Shown here piece after piece: positions 1-4,015 of a DNA stretch of 64,000 nt; the first letter of the stretch is position 1, and every line of letters begins with the position of its first letter. Below the pieces are notes generated by a model. It saw only the letters and a list, made by a program, of their open reading frames with translations. It did no database searches and was not told the DNA's origin. The stretch is taken from positions 124,001-188,000 of the forward strand of contig NZ_BAMW01000057.1 of NCBI RefSeq assembly GCF_000963945.1. The letters are read 5' to 3'. The stretch is from Acetobacter indonesiensis (GTDB lineage Bacteria > Pseudomonadota > Alphaproteobacteria > Acetobacterales > Acetobacteraceae). Position numbers and translations under genes: made by a program.

Positions 1-355
1 GGTACCCACCATTCCAAAAATGTACCCCATCTTTCCCACAGTGTGTACAGATTACAAAGTGTTGGAAAATCAGGTGTTTTTAGAGTTATCCAGAAAATAC
101 CCCAATAAGCCTGTGTACAACTCACCGGTTCATGACTCTTGAAGGTTGTGCACGGTACTCGGTACGGGCTTGTCATGATCGCCGTACAATCCACATGTAC
201 CCCGGTACTCAGGATAGTACTCACACCCCCTTTTTTGCTCAGTACCTGAAAAGGACTCGCTCACGTGTCAGATTTAGTACTTAAGCCGACTCCATTACAG
301 AACAGTGGTCACGAACTAGTACTAGCGAGTACTTCTGCTACCAGACGAATAGTAC
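1..355. other. Dense GTAC cluster, candidate origin-type region
   Basis: Fifteen GTAC tetranucleotides start at 2, 22, 45, 115, 155, 162, 184, 197, 205, 217, 242, 277, 319, 329 and 352. Chance predicts one or two in 355 bp. The cluster fills the non-coding stretch before maf and continues through the first 30 codons of maf, then stops. TTATCCAGA at 86-94 is one mismatch from the DnaA-box consensus TTATCCACA; weaker variants lie at 32-40 and 187-195. In Caulobacter and relatives maf lies close to oriC. A replication-origin or other methylation-sensitive control region is an inference; the site density is directly visible. Confidence 0.5.
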
Positions 356-897
356 TGACCAACGCAGGCCTGACGTTTTCTGCCGTTGCATCCATGGTGG
401 ATGAAGATGTTTTGAAAACTGCCGGAAAGAAAGAAGGATGGAGCCCATCGGCCACCGCCCTCCGTCTGGCAGAAGCAAAGGCATTGTCTGTTGAGCAGCC
501 CGACGCCTTTGTTATAGGCGCTGACCAGATGTTGTCCTGTCAGGGTGTGTTATATGACAAGCCTGCAGACATGACGGCTGCCCGGCATCAGCTTCAAACC
601 CTGCGTGGCCAGACGCATAGCCTGCATACTGCTGTGGTTGTCTGCCGGAACGGGGCGGTGCTCTGGCAGCATGTGTCTGAACCCAAGCTGACCATGCGCC
701 GCTTTTCAGATGCCTTTCTTGATGCCTATCTTCAGGAGGAAGGAGCACGCTGTCTGGCGTCGGTGGGGAGTTATCGTGTTGAAGGGCTAGGCCTGCATCT
801 GTTTGCCGCAATAGAGGGAGACCATACGGCTATTCTGGGTCTTCCGCTCTTACCATTGCTGACAAGTCTGCGCGAAATGGGCGTACTTATTTCCTGA
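265..897 (+). CDS. maf: Maf-like nucleoside triphosphate pyrophosphatase
   Basis: The 210-residue product has the Maf/YhdE fold signatures: an N-terminal LASTSATRR motif (canonical LASxSPxRR), the GADQ segment near residue 86 that supplies the catalytic acidic residue, and the later KP...TLRGQTH segment. Family members hydrolyse non-canonical or modified NTPs to NMP and are linked to cell-division control. The start is GTG at 265, with AAGGA at 251-255 in front. The first 30 codons use many codons that look rare here (TTA, GTA, CTA, AGA, CGA, ATA) and carry the tail of the GTAC cluster. In many alphaproteobacteria maf is followed by aroE-coaE-dnaQ; here a tRNA gene follows. Confidence 0.9.
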   Translation: MSDLVLKPTPLQNSGHELVLASTSATRRIVLTNAGLTFSAVASMVDEDVLKTAGKKEGWSPSATALRLAEAKALSVEQPDAFVIGADQMLSCQGVLYDKPADMTAARHQLQTLRGQTHSLHTAVVVCRNGAVLWQHVSEPKLTMRRFSDAFLDAYLQEEGARCLASVGSYRVEGLGLHLFAAIEGDHTAILGLPLLPLLTSLREMGVLIS

Positions 898-979
898 AAA
901 AGGGGCTTGCCACCCGCAAAAACGCCTTGTATTAGGCATGCACACGCACACCACCCCCAAATGGTGTGGGAGGAACAGT

Positions 980-1055
<76 letters not shown>

Positions 1056-1293
1056 GTTCTTTTTTCATCTTCAAAATGTCATTGTTATAAAGTTTAACCC
1101 GATGAGTGGTTTAGCTTTCTTGTTCTGTCTGCTGCGTTCCAGGCCTTAGGCACGGGAAGCAGGACAACAGGCCGAGCTTTTTTGTGTATTCTCCTCTCTC
1201 CTTGCTGGTCTGCGTTGTGTAGGCCCAATCTGTCTGGACAAACCAAGGCAGAACGACGCAAGAACGATTTCCTTCTTTTTTGGGTCCGACTTC

Positions 1294-2535
1294 ATGGCAC
1301 GCTCTTCCCCCCCCCAACTGCTGCCCGGCGGTAGCTTTGGCCCCTGGCTTATTGTGCTGCTGGGTCTGGTGTCGGCTATTGGGCCGGTGGCAACAGATAT
1401 GTATCTGCCCGCATTCCCTGAAGTGGAGCATGATCTGGCCGGGGGGCCGGGGTCTGCCCAGTTTACGCTGGCCGCCTGGTTTTTTGGATTAGCAATTGGT
1501 CAGTTTTCTCAGGGCCCACTTTCCGACCGTTTTGGCAGGCGCGCACCGTTGATAATCGGTCTGGCAGTCTTTGCGTTGGCTTCCGCCGGGTGTGCCATTG
1601 TGCAGGATTATCATCTGTTCTGTTTGTGCCGGTTTGTTTCTGCAGTTGGTGGGTCTGCCAGTGCGGTTATTCCCCGTGCCATTGTGCGTGACGTAGCGAC
1701 GGGCAAAAAAGGTGCCCGCATTATGTCCCAGCTGACGCTGGTTTTTGGCGTCATGCCTGTTCTGGCACCCAGCCTTGGCAGCATTGTGCTGAAATTCGGG
1801 AATTGGCGGTGGATCTTCTGGGTTGGCACAGTCTATGCACTGGCGGCCATTGTCGGTGTATTACTGACATTGCCTGATACGCTATCTGCTGAACGACGGA
1901 TTGCGTTTTCACCTGTCAGGATAGCCAGCCGTTATATCCTTATTCTGAAAGAGCCTGTTTTCCTTTCAAACGCCCTGTTGGCCACGTTTTCTACGTTCGT
2001 CATGTTTGCCTATCTGGGCAGTGCGCCGGTGTTGTTTGAACAGGTTCTCCATTTCTCTGCCGGGCAGTTTGGGGTGTTTTTTGGTGTTAACGCCGCGGCT
2101 TTCATTCTGGGTACCCAGATAAACGGGCGGCTGGTGCATCGTTTTGCCATGCCGGTTCTGCTGGAGGTAGCCCTTCTGTGGGCTTTGGTTATAGGTATGC
2201 TCTTCGTCGTATTGGCGCTGACAGGTGTTGCTGGCGAACATCATCCTATCCTGACCTGCGGTTTGATTACCTGCATTACCGGCGCACTGGGGTTCATTGG
2301 CCCCAACGCGACAGTCATGTCGTTTTATCATCATGGGCAACATGCCGGCAGCGCGTCTGCCATGTTGGGAACCATGCAGTTTAGTATCGGTTCACTCAGT
2401 AGTGTTTTGGTGGGATTGCTTCCCGGCGGTAGCGCTATTCCAACAGCCATTGGCATGATGACAGGAATTCTCGGCATGGCTATTGCCGACCTGATGCGGC
2501 GTCGTGCCCCAGCTATCGGTTCAGAGGATGACTGA
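1294..2535 (+). CDS. Bcr/CflA-family multidrug MFS transporter
   Basis: A 413-residue integral membrane protein with about 12 hydrophobic segments. The first helix ends in DMYLPAFPE, the signature of Bcr/CflA drug:proton antiporters, and GPLSDRFGRR is the MFS motif A between helices 2 and 3. The family exports compounds such as bicyclomycin, chloramphenicol or sulfonamides from the cytoplasm; the substrate cannot be read here. It starts at an ATG without a strong Shine-Dalgarno sequence. The amidohydrolase gene follows 31 bp downstream, so the two may be co-transcribed. The 238 bp between the tRNA and this gene show nothing I can name. Confidence 0.88.
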   Translation: MARSSPPQLLPGGSFGPWLIVLLGLVSAIGPVATDMYLPAFPEVEHDLAGGPGSAQFTLAAWFFGLAIGQFSQGPLSDRFGRRAPLIIGLAVFALASAGCAIVQDYHLFCLCRFVSAVGGSASAVIPRAIVRDVATGKKGARIMSQLTLVFGVMPVLAPSLGSIVLKFGNWRWIFWVGTVYALAAIVGVLLTLPDTLSAERRIAFSPVRIASRYILILKEPVFLSNALLATFSTFVMFAYLGSAPVLFEQVLHFSAGQFGVFFGVNAAAFILGTQINGRLVHRFAMPVLLEVALLWALVIGMLFVVLALTGVAGEHHPILTCGLITCITGALGFIGPNATVMSFYHHGQHAGSASAMLGTMQFSIGSLSSVLVGLLPGGSAIPTAIGMMTGILGMAIADLMRRRAPAIGSEDD

Positions 2536-2566
2536 ACCCGCCTGATTTGAAAGAGAAGGAACTGGC

Positions 2567-4015
2567 ATGATTGACCATCCCCCTGCCCCGAACAGTCTTG
2601 TTGCAGCCAGAAGCCGACGCAGGCGGGCGGGCTCTCTTTCCCTCTCCTTACTGGCCGGAGCCTGCGCTGCGATTGTCATGGCCCCACAGGGGAAAGCGGC
2701 ACCAACTTCCGTTCCTGTCTTGCTGGAGCATGTGCGTGTGTTTGATGGCACTGACGCACCGGAACAGGAGAATATGTCCGTTCTGGTTGAGGGGCAGACC
2801 ATTGCGGCCATTGGGCATAGTCGTACCTTGAAAGCACCCAAGGGGACCAAGCGGGTTAATCTTTCCGGCAAAACCCTTATCCCCGGTCTGATTTCCAACC
2901 ATAGCCATGTGGGTGTTGTTGCCGGGACAAGCGTGGGGTCTGAAAACTTTACGGCTCCGGTTATCAAGGCCGCGTTAGATCAGTATCAGCGCTATGGCGT
3001 CACCACTGTTACGGCTTTGGGTCTGACAAAGTCGCCTTTGTTTGATGATCTTCGCAAAGCGCAACATGCCAACACGGAGGGAGCAGACCTGTTTGGGGTA
3101 GACCAGGGAATTGGTGTGCCCGGCGGTATGCCGCCGGAGGGAATGGTCAAAGTTGGCAAGGACCAGATATTCCGCCCCTCCACCCCAGCCGAAGCCCGGC
3201 AGGCTGTTGATACGATGGTAAGCGAAGGCACGGATCTGGTTAAACTGTGGGTTGATGATTTCAAGAACGGTGTTCAGTCAGCCAAACCTCTGCCGGTTAT
3301 GAAACCGGAAGTGTGGCAGGCTGTCATGGCAGAAGCACATGCCAAAAATGTGCGCGTTGCTGTGCATATTCATGATCTGGCGTACGCCAAGAAGCTTGTT
3401 GCCGCTGGCGCGGATATTATTGCCCACGGCGTAAGAGACGAGCCCGTGGATGATGAACTGATCGGTCTGCTGAAAAGCCATAATGTCTGGTATGTGCCCA
3501 CCATCAGTCTGGACGAAGCCACATATCTTTTTGCTGAACAGCCAGACCTTCTGAATGACCCTGTGCTGAAAGCCGGATTAAGCGAAGATCTGACACGCCA
3601 GTTTTCGGATGCTGCATGGCGGGAAAAAACGGTCAAATCGCCTATGGATGCAGCGTCGCACAAAGCGGTGGCCATGAATCAGCAAAACCTGCTGGCTCTT
3701 TACAAGGCCGGTGTGAATATCGGGTTTGGCACAGATTCCGGCGCAGCCCCCGTGCGTATTCCCGGTTTTGCCGAACATAGGGAGCTTAGGCTGCTTGTTG
3801 ATGCAGGGCTGACACCTTTGCAGGCCCTCCGGCTGGCTACCAGTCAGGCCGCATCTTTGCTCAAGCTGTCAGACAGAGGCGTAATTGCACCGGGCAAGCG
3901 TGCTGATTTTGTTATTCTGGATGCCGACCCGGCACAGAACATTGCCGCGGTTGACCAGATTGCAGCCGTATGGCGCGGGGGTGTGCGGGCAACGGGGCCA
4001 TTGGTGCCCCGCTAA
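2567..4015 (+). CDS. Exported amidohydrolase (imidazolonepropionase-like)
   Basis: A 482-residue protein with an N-terminal signal peptide: basic ARSRRRRAG, then a hydrophobic stretch ending near MAPQGKAA. The mature part is a metal-dependent hydrolase of the amidohydrolase superfamily. It has the paired histidines in SNHSHVG at the end of strand 1, a probable metal-bridging lysine in DLVKLWVDD, further histidines in VAVHIHDL and IAHGV, and an Asp in FGTDSGA. The C-terminal PGKRADFVILD segment is typical. Relatives act on cyclic amides, prolidase-type peptides or organophosphates; the substrate is unknown. The sequence GAGAAGGAA precedes the ATG. A hairpin terminator follows. Confidence 0.85.
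   Translation: MIDHPPAPNSLVAARSRRRRAGSLSLSLLAGACAAIVMAPQGKAAPTSVPVLLEHVRVFDGTDAPEQENMSVLVEGQTIAAIGHSRTLKAPKGTKRVNLSGKTLIPGLISNHSHVGVVAGTSVGSENFTAPVIKAALDQYQRYGVTTVTALGLTKSPLFDDLRKAQHANTEGADLFGVDQGIGVPGGMPPEGMVKVGKDQIFRPSTPAEARQAVDTMVSEGTDLVKLWVDDFKNGVQSAKPLPVMKPEVWQAVMAEAHAKNVRVAVHIHDLAYAKKLVAAGADIIAHGVRDEPVDDELIGLLKSHNVWYVPTISLDEATYLFAEQPDLLNDPVLKAGLSEDLTRQFSDAAWREKTVKSPMDAASHKAVAMNQQNLLALYKAGVNIGFGTDSGAAPVRIPGFAEHRELRLLVDAGLTPLQALRLATSQAASLLKLSDRGVIAPGKRADFVILDADPAQNIAAVDQIAAVWRGGVRATGPLVPR

Follow-up and report, generated by a model that had tools for sequence, protein, structure and literature searches.

To our knowledge, methylation-controlled origins of replication are known chiefly from bacteria that possess Dam and SeqA. 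In the GATC/Dam/SeqA system of Escherichia coli, according to the accessible part of the source (PMC13076061), the methylation state delays or times the next initiation. A loosely similar role has been proposed for CcrM at ori2 of Agrobacterium in the available portion of another report (PMC11514494), and thus methylation-linked origin control, with a different motif, has already been suggested for Alphaproteobacteria. Cori, the Caulobacter origin, is situated between hemE and a COG1806/DUF299 gene and was, at the time of the cited paper, the only one in Alphaproteobacteria to have been identified experimentally (excerpts of PMC1914354). As for the palindrome GTAC, it is modified by M.RsaI to m4C at 87.65% of motifs (PMC6256690). 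The same motif is recognized by M.HpyAXII and M.Hpy99XII, but these are gamma-class enzymes producing m6A, and the accessible text describing them mentions no link to an origin (PMC3936762). The locus described here shares with the origins of E. coli and Vibrio cholerae, as portrayed in the available parts of PMC13076061 and PMC2865523, a 4-bp palindrome repeated at high density, DnaA boxes (here DnaA-box-like blocks) interleaved with it and a stand-alone methyltransferase. It differs from them in having GTAC as the palindrome, in belonging to another lineage and in being accompanied by a beta-class enzyme with the TSPPY motif, which possibly makes m4C rather than m6A.

The window, a 64-kb stretch of the Acetobacter indonesiensis genome, begins within this array (Table 1). 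The first-pass annotation had listed 15 GTAC sites in window positions 1-355 and a near-consensus DnaA box among them. All of these sites are in place (2, 22, 45, 115, 155, 162, 184, 197, 205, 217, 242, 277, 319, 329 and 352), and so is the box, TTATCCAGA. A sixteenth GTAC occurs at contig position 123985, 17 bp to the left of window position 2, the left end of the array being cut by the window edge. The rate in the window as a whole predicts about 0.5 sites, and dinucleotide-preserving shuffles of the 355 bp (n = 2000) gave a mean of 3.3 and a maximum of 10. No 4-mer is more over-represented in the region than GTAC, and the densest 355 bp in the rest of the window contain at most 4 copies. 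A pattern search of the entire assembly (3,413,797 bases in 181 contigs) for three GTAC within 72 bp returned 13 places, of which 8 belong to the array and the other 5 are isolated; by this pattern no comparable cluster, and hence no second one of equal density, was found elsewhere in the 3.4 Mb. The idea that the array is a compositional accident or an artefact of assembly can be practically dismissed, given a Poisson P of about 8e-18 and the presence of the array in every one of 37 assemblies from the same genus (apparently Acetobacter).

Table 1. Coordinates of the array, its DnaA-box-like blocks, the neighbouring gene and the orphan methyltransferase (window positions unless a contig is named)
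Feature	Position	Strand	Remarks
Conserved GTAC array in putative oriC (12 window sites)	1..280	.	Site list and conservation
Array region left of window	to ~contig 123,900		AT-rich TATAAAAAAAGAAGATAG tract, TGTGGATGA box, GTAC at contig 123985
DnaA-box-like TTTCCCACA	32..40	+	Conserved block; presumed consensus
DnaA-box-like TTATCCAGA (near-consensus)	86..94	+	Presumed consensus
DnaA-box-like TTGTGCACG	146..154	+	Abuts GTAC at 155; presumed consensus
DnaA-box-like AATCCACAT	188..196	+	Exactly between GTAC 184-187 and GTAC 197-200; presumed consensus
maf (Maf-like protein, PF02545), right neighbour of array	265..897	+	
Three extra GTAC (319, 329, 352) in 5' part of maf	319..355	.	Few relatives share these positions
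Orphan beta-class methyltransferase of the window genome	G000 C167:109567-110409		Between Tim44-family gene and MauG/MbnH-like di-heme gene

The sites are strongly conserved in relatives. In the 37 same-genus genomes GTAC occurs 8-15 times per 355 bp, and the means of all other palindromic 4-mers stay at or below 2.43 per 350 bp. Mean conservation is 0.90 for the 13 sites as far as window position 280, compared with 0.34 for 249 other 4-mers (Mann-Whitney P = 1.4e-8, n = 37 unselected genomes). The GTAC at 319, 329 and 352 are kept in just 5-11% of the same 37 genomes, and the right end of the conserved array lies at about 280; should the GTG at 265 be the maf start, the GTAC at 277 also falls within that gene. 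When 54 regions were aligned, 17 of them picked for having an array and the other 37 unselected, each of 12 sites occurred in 54-100% of genomes and the one at contig 123985 in 44%, the median for 4-mers not overlapping GTAC being 15%. Flanks compared across sites in five genomes hold no more than 0.43 bit of information per position outside GTAC and, therefore, the bare palindrome is what is kept. A similar module, with 7-14 GTAC per 355 bp, occurs in G073, G082, G100, G106, G114, G121, G130, G131, G181, G185, G190, G232 and G239. The spacing between sites (20, 23, 70, then 7, 22, 13, 8) is largely common across genera, with G120 and G191 agreeing less well. In 13 of 24 class-level alphaproteobacterial genomes the stretch preceding the best Maf match, which may not be an origin, has 0-2 GTAC per 355 bp.

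Several features suggest that the array marks an origin. Its left neighbour, immediately adjacent and divergent from maf, is hemE (PF01208, E = 1.8e-113), such that the array adjoins the starts of two divergent genes. In one genome (G160) a PPPase gene (PF03618, which we take to be the DUF299 family) is located between the array and maf. Like Cori, the array is found beside hemE and, in G160, has the PPPase gene on its other side; unlike the array, Cori is described in the accessible text by its DnaA, IHF and CtrA sites and not by GTAC (PMC1914354). The array is interspersed with blocks resembling TTATCCACA, which we assume to be the DnaA box consensus; the identity of the boxes follows from this assumption. 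The conserved blocks are TTATCC, TGTGGAT and aTCC.CAT, together with the AT-rich TATAAAAAAAG tract, and TTATCC, part of the near-consensus box, is among the most conserved words other than GTAC. In some relatives TTGTCCACG replaces TTGTGCACG at the block abutting the GTAC at 155. GTAC-AATCCACAT-GTAC spans 184-200, so that GTAC touches a DnaA-box-like block on both sides.

The position of the GC-skew sign change is also in agreement with an origin. Along the window contig, measured in 4-kb steps, skew amounts to -0.119, -0.139 and -0.068 in the three that precede the array on its left and to +0.048 in the one that follows; among the other 15 steps of the window, 12 are positive and three lie between -0.001 and -0.008. 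The sign change was further located with 20-kb samples in three relatives having chromosome-sized contigs (G017, G018 and G032), and in all of them it brackets the array. In G018, with the array at 1.11 Mb, the flanking samples are at 0.86 and 1.12 Mb, and in G017, with the array at 2.33 Mb, they are at 2.18 and 2.52 Mb. In G032 the array is at 3.56 Mb of 3.73 Mb and the sign changes between 3.55 Mb and the record start, in a noisy profile (skew is below zero in the 0.74 Mb sample, above it at 3.16 Mb and close to it at the record start). Because of the flanks resembling those of Cori, the DnaA-box-like blocks and the skew, the array site is very probably the chromosome origin, and we infer with some force that it functions as one. 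Of the outcomes that the first-pass annotation had named as refuting its idea, namely clusters of like density at many unrelated places, unconserved sites and a distant skew minimum, none was observed.

The proximity of the array to maf raises the question whether it could simply regulate maf or hemE and have nothing to do with replication. Its overlap with the maf start in the window genome would fit such a role. However, in G092 and G161, both of which have the methyltransferase discussed below, there is no array between hemE and maf, and a whole-genome pattern search found the array intact at a distance of ~21-25 kb from maf in five genomes (~24 kb in G177, ~25 kb in G092, ~22 kb in G229, ~21-23 kb in G161 and G217). 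These displaced arrays open with the same module, GTACCC...GTACCC...TGTGTAC, and in G161 the frame following the array resembles, by eye, a GMC oxidoreductase. These five displaced arrays speak against a maf promoter, and with the G161 frame and the PPPase gene intervening in G160 we regard regulation of maf or hemE as very improbable. The first-pass annotation had proposed that the cluster controls either the start of replication or a replication-linked promoter; of the two, control of replication start is retained here, and the promoter part, as far as maf is concerned, has lost ground. An RNA element was also considered and rejected, as window positions 1-3000 contain only a tRNA at Rfam gathering scores. 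This gene, a tRNA-Ala (GGC) at 980-1055 according to ARAGORN, is just downstream of maf.

If GTAC is methylated in this lineage, as the first-pass annotation had suspected, the genome should encode a suitable enzyme, and a candidate conserved together with the array was indeed found. A PF01555 scan of 38 genomes produced a strong top match in 37. In the window genome this match is CcrM (455.9 bits on a 222-aa part), and judging by score the top matches in the other genomes are presumably CcrM as well. A second match, of 271-354 aa, is present in all 25 array genomes of this 38-genome set and in G092 and G161; matches of similar score in G219 and G154 proved on reading to be different proteins. 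In the window genome the second protein (PF01555 E = 9.1e-43) has TSPPYN early and DPFMGTGTT late, an order which we take to define the beta class, and TSPPYN is invariant in 7 aligned members of the family. It resembles CcrM in being a stand-alone, beta-class, alphaproteobacterial enzyme, but it is encoded in addition to CcrM, it belongs to a separate family (the CcrM model gives 72.7 bits against a cut-off of 830) and its putative motif, GTAC, differs from GANTC.

The gene has a stable setting, with a Tim44-family gene upstream on the same strand in 42 of 47 Acetobacteraceae loci. The 300 bp before the gene contain 0-2 GTAC in the 47 loci, that is, no GTAC-rich promoter, and the 12 kb around the copy of the window genome yielded no RsaI-like endonuclease. 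In three array-free genomes (G070, G127 and G202; loci L391, L402 and L405) the enzyme gene is 7-10 kb from hemE. G228 has a second methyltransferase copy (C1:2003396-2004202, 56% identity); ~70-105 bp ahead of the match stands a GTAC triple.

The enzyme is present in 89 of 200 family genomes and in 51 of 102 genera, with best matches of ~3e-100 or better save for the split copy of G242. Class-wide, 4 of 385 genomes matched at 1e-40 (with the L312 relative as query), and all four are Acetobacteraceae. We called an array at >=6 GTAC per 355 bp and counted as array-free the family genomes that fell below this in the hemE-maf stretch read; the border is narrow, since one array-free genome (G077, the highest) has 5. 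All 49 array genomes tested have the enzyme and none lacks it, and among 57 array-free genomes it is present in 26 and absent from 31 (Fisher 2e-11, uncorrected for ancestry, the counts being inflated by shared descent). Among these, 5 of the 26 enzyme-bearing and 6 of the 31 enzyme-free genomes showed no hemE in the stretch, and their origins were possibly missed. The table leaves out 27 of the 89 enzyme genomes: three with arrays (G019, G090, G228), 17 whose origins were unread and in which a whole-genome pattern search found no array module, and 7 not looked at. The notion that the enzyme occurs only together with the array has to be rejected in view of the 26 array-free genomes, where it must either have another role or have outlived an array lost in those lineages. 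Two Acetobacteraceae genomes of ~2 Mb (G089, G126) have neither the enzyme, for which G126 gave no match at 1e-40, nor, in the pattern search, an array module, a possible joint loss.

In the enzyme tree, three changes of the array label suffice if G106 is counted as an array genome. The main branch of 45 rows comprises 29 array genomes, 15 array-free ones and one viral copy; G101, G113 and G189 cluster with copies found outside the family, some of which are accompanied by RsaI-like endonucleases. As drawn, an array-free branch is nested among array branches, and the root and several deep forks are weak. Because of this nesting and these weak forks, the tree does not settle between gain of the array after the enzyme and its loss.

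That the orphan enzyme is specific for GTAC is suggested by its family context. Identity to its best phage relatives is 43-49%. The relative in Synechococcus phage Syn19 is annotated as an adenine methylase and its neighbour, by the depositor, as the R.RsaI endonuclease. Close homologues of this endonuclease (46%) adjoin enzyme relatives in L302-L304. A second endonuclease set, 64-69% alike, adjoins them in L301, L312 (Caulobacteraceae) and L315/L397 (an Acetobacteraceae MAG). A weak pairwise match (27% identity, E = 7e-9) connects this set with the Syn19 protein, and a further connection between the two sets is the PADLOC model PDLC03550, which matches Syn19 at 1.6e-11, L301 at 2e-7 and L312 at 9e-4 but gives no match for L315. 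The Syn19 endonuclease gave no match to L301, L312 or L315 at E 1e-4, and the L312 endonuclease gave none among plasmids and phages; the search with Syn19 R.RsaI against 385 alphaproteobacterial genomes, with 0 matches, is uninformative.

The resemblance to the RsaI system is that relatives of the enzyme adjoin a gene annotated as R.RsaI, or genes similar to it, and that M.RsaI is specific for GTAC (PMC6256690). The differences are that among the 47 fetched Acetobacteraceae stretches such an endonuclease was found beside the enzyme in one (G101) and in none of the other 46, and that copies with or near restriction-modification types form a separate branch of the tree. RsaI-type methyltransferases have a beta-class domain with SPPY in common with the orphan enzyme, the comparison being made through relatives beside RsaI-like endonucleases. 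A family member on viral contig L300 (IMG/VR, 2137-2928, 63% identity) nests inside the Acetobacteraceae branch and, therefore, phages may copy the host mark. Another, on viral contig L301 (2935-3798), has an RsaI-like endonuclease gene on the same contig. An Archaeoglobaceae MAG encodes an enzyme relative (L362, 4854-5549) whose gene overlaps the one downstream; the latter matches the PDLC03511 type II restriction enzyme model at 3e-17.

The modified base is possibly N4-methylcytosine. The signals are mixed, since the best NCBIfam model is adenine-specific (far under its cut-off, 113.7 of 292 bits), the Syn19 label reads adenine methylase, and solved relatives include enzymes producing both m4C (8s9n, 1boo) and m6A (CcrM, DpnA, MboIIA, RsrI).

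A different way to account for these observations is that GTAC is bound as such by a putative origin protein with a 4-bp site, a helper or a repressor, independently of methylation, the enzyme being an old core gene of the family. The spacing of many sites kept across genera and the 26 genomes having the enzyme without an array would suit direct binding. On the other hand, a protein-binding array without a flanking consensus is unusual, and here no consensus extends beyond GTAC. The absence of any enzyme-free genome among the 49 with arrays and the RsaI-like endonucleases adjoining enzyme relatives likewise speak against it. Taken together, we consider direct binding unlikely, though it deserves to be kept in mind.

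The interpretation that we favour, and hold to be fairly probable, is that of an origin with about 13 GTAC interleaved with DnaA-box-like blocks, which is methylated by the orphan enzyme and thereby times or limits re-initiation. Window positions 1-280 and ~100 bp to their left would constitute the chromosome origin. GTAC would most likely be methylated by the beta-class enzyme encoded elsewhere in the genome, possibly as N4-methylcytosine, and each initiation would leave the array hemimethylated, providing a dense tag of the newly copied origin. The most likely use of such a tag would be to limit, delay or time re-initiation, either through a putative reader protein or through altered DnaA binding at the boxes touching GTAC. 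What genome comparison shows is the array, where it lies, how well it is kept and that it co-occurs with the enzyme; that GTAC is methylated here, the chemistry involved, the reader protein and an influence on initiation are predictions.

We advance more hesitantly, and would sooner doubt than assert, the fuller proposal that this is an independently evolved methylation clock of acetic acid bacteria, composed of a hemimethylated GTAC array, a domesticated orphan writer of RsaI type, m4C in place of m6A and a reader other than SeqA; its m4C part is weakened by the matches naming adenine-specific enzymes. Methylation of GTAC at the origin could also serve cohesion, segregation, nucleoid anchoring or nearby transcription instead of the timing of initiation. 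Methylated origins have several roles in other bacteria, and the array does lie beside the starts of two divergent genes, but it is interleaved with DnaA-box-like blocks, some of them touched by GTAC, and persists where maf and hemE are elsewhere, so that we find a purpose other than timing rather improbable.

Overall, the array and the enzyme make a strong and testable candidate for a methylation-marked origin and point to a form of replication timing that has not been described. Among the matches listed in searches of the open-access literature we found no description of GTAC origins in acetic acid bacteria or of GTAC methylation in Acetobacter; novelty is not thereby proven, as most subscription journals lie outside that search. 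If the proposed timing by GTAC methylation is true, this would be a second, unrelated methylated origin that differs in motif, in enzyme class and perhaps in the modified base, and tagging of origins by a dense methylatable palindrome would have evolved more than once. Since the enzyme is also present in array-free relatives, the gain or loss of such control would be open to study within a single family. The proposal can be tested in vinegar and cellulose bacteria, which are easily grown and in which control of the origin bears on plasmid and strain engineering.
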